From Candidatus Rokuibacteriota bacterium (GTDB taxonomy: Bacteria > Methylomirabilota > Methylomirabilia > Rokubacteriales > CSP1-6): a DNA stretch of 64,000 bases. Both the position numbers and the translations under genes were made by a program. This document shows, piece by piece, positions 38,365-63,188 of this stretch. Where the stretch lies: contig QHSL01000061.1 of assembly GCA_003220435.1 (NCBI GenBank), positions 1-64,000 of the forward strand, in the 5' to 3' direction. The notes beneath the pieces were generated by a model. It ran no database searches. It was not told the origin of the DNA and saw only the letters and a list, made by a program, of their open reading frames with translations. Within the stretch, counting starts at the first letter, position 1, and every line of letters begins with the position of its first letter.

Positions 38365-38952
38365 ATGGACGGCGGCGCGCTCCCAACCGCGTGGCCGAGC
38401 AGTTTCCCCGAGCTGGCCACCGAGCGGCTCCGACTCCGCGCGCCGCTCCCGCGCGACGCCGCAGCGCTCCTGGGCATCCTCGGCGACCCCGAGGTCACCA
38501 GATACCACAACATGCCGACGCTCACGACGCTGGCCGAAGCGCACGCGGCGCTCGAGCGGCTCGAACAGCGCTATACCGGCCGCGATGCGATCCGCTGGGC
38601 GATCGAGCTGGTCGAGCACGGCCAAATGATCGGCACAGTCGGACTGCTCCGGTTCGACTTCGAGCATCGCCGGGCCGAGGTGGGGTACGAGATCGCGCGC
38701 CGCGAGTGGGGCCGAGGGCTTGCGCCCGAGGCGGCCGCGGCCGTCATCAGGTACGGATTGTCCGTCTTGGGCCTCCACCGGATCGAGGCCGGGGTGCTGC
38801 CCGAGAACGACGCGTCGGTGCGGGTCCTCCAGAAGCTCGGATTCCTTGAGGAGGGGCCGAGGCGGGACTACCTGTACGCCAAGGGTTGCTTTCACACCTT
38901 CCGGTGGTTCAGCCTGCTCGAAACCGACGAGTTGCCTGGAACCGCCCGATGA
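38365..38952 (+). CDS. GNAT acetyltransferase, RimJ/RimL type
   Basis: A 195-residue N-acetyltransferase: LATERLRLRAPLPRDAAALL, MIGTVGLLRFDFEHRRAEVG, YEIARREWGRGLAPEAAAAV (acetyl-CoA loop) and LGLHRIEAGVLPENDASVRV with LQKLGFLEEG. This is the subgroup that acetylates protein N termini or small amines. Its stop overlaps the dinB start (ATGA), so the two are coupled. Confidence 0.85.
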   Translation: MDGGALPTAWPSSFPELATERLRLRAPLPRDAAALLGILGDPEVTRYHNMPTLTTLAEAHAALERLEQRYTGRDAIRWAIELVEHGQMIGTVGLLRFDFEHRRAEVGYEIARREWGRGLAPEAAAAVIRYGLSVLGLHRIEAGVLPENDASVRVLQKLGFLEEGPRRDYLYAKGCFHTFRWFSLLETDELPGTAR

Positions 38953-40031
38953 CGTCGCCGGCGGAGCGACGCGTCGTCCATCTCGACATGGACGCCTTCT
39001 ATGCGTCGGTCGAGCAGCGCGACCAGCCGGAGCTGCGCGGCCGTCCGGTCGTCGTCGGCGGTGACTCGCGTCGGGCCGTCGTCGCGGCCGCCTCCTACGA
39101 GGCGCGGAAGTTCGGGATCCGGTCGGCTATGCCGATGTTCCGCGCGCGGCGGCTGTGTCCCGATCTGGTCATCGTGGAGCTCCGGATGGACCACTACCGG
39201 GCGGTGTCCCAGGAGATCCGCGCGATCCTCGGACGATTCACCGAGCAGATCGAGCCGCTGGCCCTGGACGAGTGCTACCTGGACGTCTCCGAGCATGCCC
39301 CAACGCTCACCGCCGCCGGACGGCTCGCCCAGGCGATGAAGGACGAGATCCGCGCGCGGGTGCGGCTGACCGCGTCGGCGGGCGTGGGGCCGAACAAGTT
39401 CGTGGCGAAGATCGCCTCGGCGCTGCGCAAGCCGGACGGGCTGGTCCTGGTGCCGACCAACGAGGTGCTGGGTTTCCTGGCGCCGCTGCCCGCCTCACGC
39501 ATGTGGGGCGTCGGGAAGGTCACGGAGCGGAGGCTCGCGCACGCCGGCATCACGACGATCGGCGGCCTCGCCGCCGCCGACCCGGCCGCGCTCGAAGCGC
39601 TGCTCGGCAAGCAAGGACGCCGGATGTGGGAGTTCGCTCACGGCGACGATCAGCGCGACGTGCAGGTGGCGCGCCGGGCAAAGTCCGTGAGCAACGAAAC
39701 CACCTTCGAGGAGGACACGACGGACCTCGTCGTGCTCCGCGAGAAGCTCGAGGCGCTCGCGCGGCGGGTCGCCGAGCGGCTCCACCGGCGTCGCCTCGCC
39801 GGCCGCACGATCGTGCTGAAGCTGACCTACCGAAACTTCCAGCACGCCTCGCGCCGGACGACCCTCGGCGCGCCCACCAGCGACGACCGCGTCATCGCCG
39901 ACGAGGCCGTGAGGCTCCTGGGCCGCAGCGAGGCGGGCACGCGACCGGTGCGGCTCGTCGGCGTGGGAGTGTCCGGCTTCGACGCCGGCGCCGCCGACGC
40001 GCCGCCCCAGCTCGGCTTCTTCTCTTCGTAG
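38949..40031 (+). CDS. dinB: DNA polymerase IV (Y-family translesion polymerase)
   Basis: A 360-residue Y-family polymerase for lesion bypass. Catalytic acids: VVHLDMDAFYASVEQRDQPE and LALDECYLDVSE; steric region VVVGGDSRRAVVAAASYEAR; helix-hairpin-helix in LPASRMWGVGKVTERRLAHA; little finger SNETTFEEDTTDLVVLREKL and LVGVGVSGF. It lacks a C-terminal beta-clamp motif that I can recognise beyond the final QLGFFSS, which fits the QLxLF clamp consensus. ATGA overlap with the GNAT gene. Confidence 0.9.
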   Translation: MTSPAERRVVHLDMDAFYASVEQRDQPELRGRPVVVGGDSRRAVVAAASYEARKFGIRSAMPMFRARRLCPDLVIVELRMDHYRAVSQEIRAILGRFTEQIEPLALDECYLDVSEHAPTLTAAGRLAQAMKDEIRARVRLTASAGVGPNKFVAKIASALRKPDGLVLVPTNEVLGFLAPLPASRMWGVGKVTERRLAHAGITTIGGLAAADPAALEALLGKQGRRMWEFAHGDDQRDVQVARRAKSVSNETTFEEDTTDLVVLREKLEALARRVAERLHRRRLAGRTIVLKLTYRNFQHASRRTTLGAPTSDDRVIADEAVRLLGRSEAGTRPVRLVGVGVSGFDAGAADAPPQLGFFSS

Positions 40032-40071: not shown

Positions 40072-40277
40072 CGCGCGTGGCGCTGTCGGACCCTCCATCG
40101 AGTACATCGCGCCGCTCCACGGCGTGCGACGGCGCCGGCGAGAAACCGGCGACGCGACGTCGTCATCGCGACCATTCGAGGCGTCAGGCCAGCACGTGAT
40201 ACCGTGTTCCGCAGCGTCCGGAGGGAACCGGGTGCCGGTCTCAGCCGTTATCCCGGAAAATCCGGGGAGGAGGAGTC

Positions 40278-40826
40278 ATGTCCATCAAGCGTGCGGTAGC
40301 TCGGACTCTCGTCCTGAGCGCCCTGGCGGTCGCGACCTTGGCCAGCGCCGCCGTCGCCCTCGAAGTCGGTCAGAAGGCGCCCGACTTCGCCCTGAACGGG
40401 ACCGACGGCAAGCCGGTCAAGCTCTCCGACCTTACGGCCAAGGGCCCGGTCGTCATCTACACGTTCATCGCGGCGTTCACCCCGACCTGAACCCGTGAGC
40501 TGAACGGCTTCGAGGCGGCGCTGCCGCAATTCGAGGCCGTGGGCGCCCAGGTCGTGGGTGTCAGCACAGATCATCACCTCGCACTGGCCGGATGGCAGAA
40601 GGATCAGAAGTCCAGGCAGCTCCTCCTCTCGGATTTCCGTCGGCAGATGCTTCCAGCGTATGGCGCGATGGTGACCGACGACAAAAGCCCGGTCTACCGC
40701 TACGCCAAGCGCGCGTACTTCATCATCGACAAGAGCGGTACGATTAAATTCGTGAAGGTCATGGACAGCGGGCTGGATCTACTCAACCCGGAGGAAGTGC
40801 TGGCCGCCGTCAAGGCGGCGATGTAG
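40278..40826 (+). CDS. Exported peroxiredoxin with selenocysteine (UGA at codon 71)
   Basis: One frame of 182 residues with a single in-frame UGA at 40488-40490. Signal peptide TLVLSALAVATLASAAVA; then VGQKAPDFALNGTDGKPVKL, VVIYTFIAAFTPT-U-TRELNG, where U sits exactly at the peroxidatic Cys of the AhpC/TSA family (xPTCT). The remainder follows the family: AQVVGVSTDHHLALAGWQKD, LLLSDFRRQMLPAYGAM and RAYFIIDKSGTIKFVKV. It should reduce peroxides in the periplasm. The ATG has GGAGGAGG upstream. A stem-loop at 40505 fits a bacterial SECIS. Reading the UGA as a stop would leave a useless 70-residue piece and a headless peroxiredoxin. Confidence 0.88.
40505..40539 (+). promoter_or_regulatory. bSECIS stem-loop of the exported peroxiredoxin gene
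   Basis: Lower stem of 10 pairs (CGGCTTCGAG with TTCGAGGCCG, two G-U pairs), an AA bulge on the 3' side, an upper 5-bp stem GCGGC / GCCGC and apical loop GCT. The loop starts 29 nt after the UGA with G in first place, inside the known spacing range of bacterial SECIS elements. Confidence 0.75.
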
Positions 40827-40837
40827 GGAGGTAGGCG

Positions 40838-41251
40838 GTGGCAATCGTCCGCTTCACGGCGCTCGTCGGCCTGATCGTCCTGACGTCCGCGGCGTGCGCG
40901 ACAACGGGGGACGAGCCTCCGTTGTCGAGCTCCACCACGACGACTCTCGTGTACGGCTGGGAACGTCACTTCAGACTCGAATGGGCCGCCGAGCCCGAGC
41001 GGGGCGGCGCCCGGCAGCTCAGCGGCTACCTCTACAACACCAACGGCGAGACTGCGACGACCGTCCGTGTCCTGGCCCAGGCGCTCGACCCGGCGGGCGC
41101 TGTGGTCGGCCAGCGCATCCAGGCGATTCCCGGTGGGGTGGGAGGGTTCGGGCGCGTCTACTTCACGGTCCCGAGCTTGCCCGAGGCTAACAGCTATCGC
41201 GTGTCGGTCTGGGACTACACGTGGTTCCAGGCCCCGCGCGACCGGATGTGA
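40838..41251 (+). CDS. Lipoprotein with an immunoglobulin-like (FxLYD-type) fold
   Basis: A 137-residue envelope protein. Lipobox LIVLTSAAC; mature part begins with a Ser/Thr stretch, then a beta-rich domain, LSGYLYNTNGETATTVRVLA, QALDPAGAVVGQRIQAIPGG and FGRVYFTVPSLPEANSYRVS. This pattern of a hydrophobic-alternating sandwich is like FxLYD domains. GTG start 11 bp after the peroxiredoxin stop with GGGAGG upstream, so the two probably share a transcript. Confidence 0.65.
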   Translation: MAIVRFTALVGLIVLTSAACATTGDEPPLSSSTTTTLVYGWERHFRLEWAAEPERGGARQLSGYLYNTNGETATTVRVLAQALDPAGAVVGQRIQAIPGGVGGFGRVYFTVPSLPEANSYRVSVWDYTWFQAPRDRM

Positions 41252-62711: not shown

Positions 62712-63188
62712 ATGATCGGGCTGCGCTTCGGCCAGGAGGCGCCGAGCTTCACGCTGCCGTCGACCGGAGGCGGTGCCGTGACGCTGTCCGACTTCAAGGG
62801 GAAGTCGGACGTGGTCCTCGTCTTTTACTGTTACGACTGGGGCAGCATCTGAACGCCCGAGCTGAGCGACCTGGGCCAGGTCGCTGACGAGATCGCCCGG
62901 CGGGGAGCAGTCCTCCTCGGCATCAGCGGCGACACCTCCTTCTGCCACGCCGCCTTCACCAAGGCGCGGAGCTTCCCGTTTCCGCTCCTGAGCGACGTCC
63001 ACCGCACGGCGATCGGCGCCTACGGCGTGCACGACGCCGAGCGCAACGTCGCGTACCGCTCGACCTTCGTCGTGGACCGCGCCGGCGTGCTGCGCTGGGG
63101 CCAGGCCGGGGACCGCCAGATGGTCCGCGACGGACGCGAAATCCTTCGCGTTCTCGACGTCATCGAGGGACTCCGTCGAAAGGGCTGA
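62712..63188 (+). CDS. Cytosolic peroxiredoxin (AhpC/Bcp type) with selenocysteine, UGA at codon 47
   Basis: One frame of 158 residues with a single in-frame UGA (62850-62852). MIGLRFGQEAPSFTLPSTGG and VTLSDFKGKSDVVLVFYCYD lead into WGSI-U-TPELSDLGQ, with U at the peroxidatic Cys position of the DWxxxCTxEL motif. After it: AVLLGISGDTSFCHAAFTKA, SFPFPLLSDVHRTAIGAYGV and STFVVDRAGVLRWGQ, all normal for the family; Cys in SFCHAAF could resolve. No signal peptide, so cytosolic. A perfect hairpin follows at 62865. Its partner reductase is not encoded here. The MoxR gene starts 20 bp downstream. Confidence 0.9.
62865..62885 (+). promoter_or_regulatory. bSECIS stem-loop of the cytosolic peroxiredoxin gene
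   Basis: Perfect 9-bp stem AGCGACCTG / CAGGTCGCT with apical loop GGC. It starts 12 nt after the UGA and the loop begins 21 nt after it, with two G first. This fits the bacterial SECIS rules. Confidence 0.8.

Follow-up and report, generated by a model that had tools for sequence, protein, structure and literature searches.

A gene for a peroxiredoxin (Prx)-fold protein with one in-frame TGA, read as selenocysteine (Sec, U), lies on the forward strand of the window, the 64,000-nt stretch of DNA analysed here. The window is part of contig C82 in a metagenome-assembled genome (MAG) of 5.44 Mb, which is 95.5% complete. Its nearest named relatives are MAGs of Candidatus Rokuibacteriota (97% identity, QHSI01000111.1). 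The features of the locus are listed in Table 1. The earlier note had placed the UGA at the peroxidatic residue within FTPT-U-TREL, and this position is confirmed as residue 71. Purine-rich stretches of the GGAG type are also found ahead of most orthologous starts. The small open reading frame (ORF) behind the Prx gene occupies the place of a TlpA-like gene in relatives. Six congeneric relatives (L020-L025) carry homologues of this ORF, 57-78% identical, in the corresponding position; a Pfam match was not obtained for it. A dinB-like gene upstream (38886-40031) was considered as part of the system and rejected, as none of the other 67 among the 68 Prx loci searched gave a tblastn match; many of these loci carry a flank of only about 1.5 kb.

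Table 1. Features of the Prx-fold gene and its immediate surroundings in the window
Feature	Position	Strand	Description
Purine-rich stretch resembling a ribosome-binding site	40264..40275	+	GGGGAGGAGGAG, ahead of the ATG; from the sequence
Prx-fold selenoprotein gene	40278..40826	+	ATG at 40278, TAG at 40826; 182 codons plus stop, one in-frame TGA read through
Signal-peptide-like N-terminus	40278..40358	+	Residues 1-27 (..ASAAVA before LEVGQKAPDF); heuristic, cleavage inferred
In-frame TGA read as Sec	40488..40490	+	Residue 71, peroxidatic position; TGA in 56/57 family members
bSECIS-like hairpin	40504..40540	+	11 lower pairs, AA bulge (40528-40529), 5 upper pairs, GCU loop (40520-40522); MFE fold
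Small ORF	40838..41251	+	137 aa, N-terminal hydrophobic stretch; starts 11 nt after the Prx stop

The match of the read-through protein to the Pfam family AhpC-TSA (PF00578, E = 1.5e-30) covers residues 30-158, and the domain thus spans the TGA. A further match was obtained to PF08534 (E = 1.4e-20). An AlphaFold2 model based on 54 sequences reached a pLDDT of 89.5; residues 1-30 are modelled with low confidence and the rest with high confidence. In structure comparisons, the model matched Prx structures, with Z-scores of 25.1 for Bcp4, about 24 for AhpE and 22-24 for many 2-Cys Prx. None of the NCBIfam equivalog cut-offs for Prx was reached by the protein. It scored 41.1 bits against PrxU (NF040737, cut-off 270) and 37.3 bits against Prx-SUH (NF045827, cut-off 298).

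A homologue search yielded 138 matches. Removal of 12 duplicates (identical 150 nt) left 126, and counts were made on the 115 that align over 100 residues or more. The residue aligned to position 71 is U in 75, C in 39 and A in one of these, a distant match. This bears out the proposal of the earlier note that homologues carry C or U at this site. All 39 homologues with at least 60% identity have U. Neither C nor U was found in four distant homologues, all far from the family defined below, with Ala in L123 and L124 and Ser in L102 and L114. A family of 57 members was defined by at least 39% identity, 100 aligned residues and E < 1e-25. Cys replaces Sec in one member (L140) and appears in more distant relatives. 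A FastTree phylogeny of 56 of the 57 members and eight Cys outgroups places the Cys variant on a long branch nested within the Sec clade. A search of 95 genomes from the phylum found matches at E <= 1e-40 in 47 of them; 56 of the 61 matches contain exactly one TGA.

The hairpin directly behind the UGA had been described in the earlier note with an AA bulge, five upper pairs, a GCT loop and a spacing of 29 nt. These elements stand; the lower stem comprises 11 pairs, not 10, with an extra closing A-U pair. The published bSECIS model specifies a loop of 3-9 nt, a distance of 16-37 nt from the UGA, a stem of 4-16 bp and an MFE of -7.5 or lower (PMC13188914, section 5). The hairpin in the window lies within these limits, with a 3-nt loop, 29 nt from the UGA and 16 pairs split by the bulge (five above it). 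The 68-nt segment that contains it folds with -29.9 kcal/mol. As a single sequence, this fold is unexceptional (z = -1.84; 10 of 200 shuffles fold equally well), and thermodynamics alone was rejected as proof of the hairpin. Rfam models, applied to the window with their gathering thresholds, gave no match. Conservation was assessed in 43 gaplessly aligned orthologues (alignment A1), with two controls that hold the protein fixed. Pairing in the 15-bp core amounts to 92.6%; 200 random synonymous recodings averaged 75.5%, and none exceeded 79.4%. For covariation, the orthologues score 660, and 1000 synonymous within-column shuffles averaged 271 and peaked at 425. Neither pairing nor covariation ever equalled the observed value in the 1000 shuffles; the orthologues are related, and the control figures are not strict probabilities. 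The covariance across homologues that the earlier note had named as a check is thus present. The hairpin is kept beyond codon constraint, which makes Sec insertion very likely.

The bSECIS model further includes a G in the first two loop positions, and some elements are stated to fail the model (PMC13188914). The GCU loop of the window has this G; among the 39 orthologues whose upper stem is intact, only 13 have it. A search by eye within the published spacing revealed no alternative hairpin nearer to the UGA that follows the apical-G rule in the orthologues. Either the SelB of this group reads something else in the hairpin, or the apical-G rule is loose here.

An absence of the Sec machinery, considered in the earlier note as a refutation, does not apply. 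The genome of the window encodes tRNA-Sec with the anticodon TCA/UCA (69.8 bits, GA 47), selB (351 bits, cut-off 242), selA (569 bits, cut-off 268) and selD (341 bits), the last with one in-frame TGA of its own. The genes selA, selB and tRNA-Sec are clustered within about 4.7 kb on contig C138. In relatives, selA was detected in 40 of 44 genomes carrying a TGA-Prx. With the thresholds applied, none of selA, selB and tRNA-Sec was detected in the remaining four assemblies (G038, G039, G051 and G091). Because these genes lie next to each other in the window genome, a single assembly gap could have removed them together in each of the four. G038 has an estimated completeness of 100%. It holds two TGA-Prx copies and one Cys-Prx beside a TlpA gene with TGA (L140, L159, L045), with no selA, selB or tRNA-Sec detected. 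This genome has either an assembly gap or a loss of Sec decoding in progress. In G004, selB is present without a selA match, and its Prx piece does not cover the site.

A true stop at codon 71, resulting from a pseudogene, a sequencing error or a pair of genes (70 aa and a downstream restart), would agree with the GTG-started ORF of 95 aa after the TGA and with the four TGA-Prx genomes whose assemblies lack selA, selB and tRNA-Sec. Such a stop is very improbable, since 56 of 57 members, some with identities as low as 39%, have TGA at this codon and distant homologues encode Cys there. The Prx domain and fold extend across the TGA, and the covariation of the hairpin also speaks against a stop. 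Differences from close relatives 3' of the TGA are located mostly at third codon positions (L021: 10, 8 and 40 at positions 1, 2 and 3), indicating that the downstream part is translated. Stop, pseudogene and sequencing error were rejected on TGA conservation, third-position bias and Cys homologues. A general recoding, with TGA71 read as Trp or by a near-cognate suppressor, would likewise open the frame; supporting evidence was not found, and this reading is hardly credible. TGA terminates 40 of the 57 family genes and many TlpA genes. It is thus also a stop in these genomes, and recoding is local and context-dependent. Homologues carry Cys at the site, not Trp, and a tRNA-Sec with the anticodon TCA is present. 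General reassignment was rejected on the use of TGA as terminator and on the Cys homologues. Comparison of the orthologues argues for decoding of UGA71 as Sec.

No cysteine is encoded beyond residue 30, in the mature part of the Prx protein, by 56 of the 57 family genes, the exception being the Cys variant. The Prx protein would therefore represent a '1-Sec' peroxiredoxin, which lacks a resolving residue and needs recharging from outside. To our knowledge, peroxiredoxins are thought to require an invariant Pro-Thr-Arg set. The proline of the PxxxTxxC/U motif is absent in all 57 members, with Ile in 49, Val in 4, Leu in 3 and Gly in 1. The protein is hence named Prx-fold and not a classical Prx, and its peroxidase activity is not assured. 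The threonine of the motif (Thr68) is kept in 51 of 57 members. The distal Arg145 is invariant in the 54 aligned rows of alignment A2, from which L147, L154 and L165 were left out, the first two for doubtful starts.

Export of the Prx protein is probable according to a heuristic applied to the N-terminus, which comprises a charged N-terminal end, a hydrophobic core and AxA before the domain. It is passed by 56 of 57 members, and the start of the sole failing member is misassigned. Selenoproteins are discussed mainly for anaerobes and as intracellular enzymes. E. coli FdnG is a periplasmic selenoprotein. The earlier note had called export unusual for selenoproteins. It is less so than claimed: exported types on record include an ExtKL multihaem cytochrome, an MtrB/PioB outer-membrane protein and ABC substrate-binding selenoproteins (PMC13188914, Table 1).

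A TlpA/ResA-like gene with its own TGA (WATWUPDC) is located directly downstream of Prx in 31 of 57 loci. Seven members of a group with 45% identity have instead a TlpA-like CxxC gene 30-36 nt upstream, as measured from alignment ends. In 19 of 57 loci, no linked TlpA was detected within about 1.5 kb, some flanks being shorter. The count of loci without a partner includes L030, whose 'upstream U' entry was the Prx matching itself. Two linked loci (L143, L149) were missed by the motif search and found by tblastn. For L061, an entry of 'none' represents no test, as the locus was outside the set searched by tblastn. Readable starts of the Sec form (TlpA-U) usually overlap the Prx stop by -4 or -1 and encode a signal-peptide-like beginning. 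TlpA-U has its own short bSECIS, positioned 16 nt after the UGA with an AGUUR loop and encoded with rarely used Leu and Pro codons. It is 97.8% paired in 32 copies; 61.5% was expected, and the maximum of 500 controls was 67.9%. The protein matches PF00578/Redoxin, the ResA and TlpA models of NCBIfam and PDB entries, with scores below every NCBIfam cut-off. The window genome contains a TlpA-U copy unlinked to Prx (C112:25638-26114). The tree suggests that the Prx-TlpA linkage is old and was lost in the lineage of the window and in L033, L034 and L037.

Several related genes were observed besides these loci. A second Prx-U in the window genome (C75) is likewise followed by a TlpA-like CxxC gene. 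The locus L061 (JAQGMI010000109.1, labelled Betaproteobacteria) carries a TGA-Prx with 46% identity and a WATWUDIC motif upstream, resulting either from transfer or from a misbinned contig. In G008, a TlpA-like gene containing a single TGA and a single TAG (C226:22485-23173) is located beside a Prx fragment (residues 130-181); this looks like a decaying second copy of the Prx-TlpA pair. The window itself encodes a second AhpC/TSA protein with an in-frame TGA (62712-63188, plus strand; FYCYDWGSIUTPEL) and no apparent signal peptide. It matches PF00578 (E = 7.4e-35), its best NCBIfam match is PrxU, below the cut-off, and it is probably another selenoprotein. The whole window genome seems to abound in Prx/TlpA-like genes with an in-frame TGA: it occurs in 9 of 14 Prx matches and in 9 of 16 TlpA matches, the two lists overlapping. 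Some of these matches have the TGA before a Cys in a UxxC pattern (YRGRWUPYC, YRGYWUPFC).

The preferred reading of the locus, with a probability of roughly 0.7, is an extracytoplasmic Sec peroxidase that is produced by hairpin-guided decoding of UGA71 and recharged by a TlpA-type Sec redoxin. SelA, SelB, tRNA-Sec and SelD would decode UGA71 as Sec, guided by the directly downstream hairpin, and the protein would be secreted after synthesis. The Sec selenolate, held by Thr68 and Arg145, would attack a hydroperoxide, yielding a selenenic acid. The oxidised Prx, without a resolving residue of its own, would depend on a thiol or selenol from elsewhere for recharging, most likely that of the probably exported TlpA/ResA-like U-x-x-C protein. 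Most relatives encode this protein in the Prx operon; in the window genome it is unlinked. A selenol or thiol of TlpA-U would attack the Prx selenenic acid, followed by release through its second residue. TlpA-U would then be recharged across the membrane by a putative DsbD/CcdA-type carrier. Comparison shows the Sec decoding, the Prx fold, the lack of further Cys and the linkage of the genes; export, peroxide as substrate and TlpA-U as reductant are the steps we infer. A wider proposal is made tentatively, at somewhat less than even odds: Rokubacteria may have a dedicated all-selenium extracytoplasmic peroxide defence, consisting of a Cys-free, Pro-less Sec peroxidase and a co-encoded TlpA Sec redoxin, with a SECIS class that does not need the apical G.

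The main rival, given the lost proline, is a role other than that of a peroxidase. The exported selenoprotein may act as a thiol-disulfide oxidoreductase, as a reductase of other oxidised residues or in selenium or metal handling, the loss of Pro accompanying a change of substrate. The replacement of Pro throughout the family agrees with such a role, as do the linkage to TlpA-like proteins, whose usual role is in disulfide chemistry, and the NCBIfam scores below all Prx equivalog cut-offs. It is nevertheless considered unlikely, as the Prx site retains its Thr and Arg, Bcp4 and AhpE are the best structural matches, and a Sec without a second redox residue cannot cycle an internal disulfide. 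An exported Sec Prx may also be recharged by a low-molecular-weight thiol or another redoxin, and the linkage to TlpA would then reflect shared regulation only. The window genome and the 19 loci without a linked TlpA fit this proposal, and 16 TlpA/redoxin matches at E <= 0.001 in the window genome offer other candidates. Recharging by a donor other than TlpA is rated as somewhat unlikely, since TlpA is linked on either side of Prx (Sec form downstream in 31 loci, Cys form upstream in 7) and a TlpA-like gene stands again beside the second Prx paralogue of the window genome.

Sec peroxiredoxins, exported selenoproteins, paired selenoprotein genes and selenoprotein-rich Methylomirabilota are already known. 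For one Methylomirabilota MAG, 63 predicted selenoprotein genes are mentioned in PMC13188914, with reference to Deng et al. (2026), a study that may already list the Prx and TlpA-U proteins. The open-access literature searched contained nothing on Rokubacteria selenoproteins or on a Prx-TlpA pair, and NCBIfam has no name for either protein. Standard gene callers would end the Prx protein at residue 70, and the pair has therefore probably been missed in many annotations. The interest lies mainly in the Cys-free, Pro-less active site and the Sec partner. In a soil lineage not yet in culture, a probably exported, Cys-free Sec enzyme has been retained that has only Thr and Arg of the Pro-Thr-Arg set and shares an operon with a possible Sec reductant. 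Three questions become testable: what restores a selenoenzyme to its reduced form in an oxidising compartment, whether a Prx can do without the proline once Sec replaces Cys, and what SelB reads where the apical G of the bSECIS is not kept.

The pair resembles known systems in which two selenoproteins act or are encoded together. A Sec glutaredoxin reportedly reduces a Sec MsrA, in work by Kim from 2011. Gene pairs of the Prx/SELENOW-like and Prx-like/AhpD-like types exist (PMC13188914). The pair described here differs from these in combining Prx with TlpA, both probably exported, a combination not among the pairs named in the available part of PMC13188914. The partner is of the same kind as the TlpA/ResA-like thiol-disulfide oxidoreductases. 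Their Sec forms include a Prx-like thiol:disulfide oxidoreductase (UxxC) and the UGC-containing TlpA family, and UxxC Sec forms have been tabulated (PMC13188914). It is distinguished from known TlpA/ResA proteins by the WATWUPDC motif, NCBIfam scores below the cut-offs and an operon with a Sec Prx. PrxU/TxxU (PF00578) of the Eubacterium acidaminophilum type shares the AhpC/TSA fold, the peroxidatic Sec in TxxU and a hairpin after the UGA (PMC13188914, Table 1). Unlike PrxU, the Prx protein of the window has a signal-peptide-like N-terminus, a Cys-free mature part and no Pro, and it scores 41 against the NCBIfam cut-off of 270. The closest solved folds are AhpE from Mycobacterium tuberculosis and the archaeal Bcp4. 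AhpE, whose entries are titled 1-Cys Prx, has no resolving Cys either. Both AhpE and Bcp4 are Cys enzymes of the cytoplasm, whereas the Prx protein described here has Sec at the active site, a predicted export signal and a TlpA-like neighbour.
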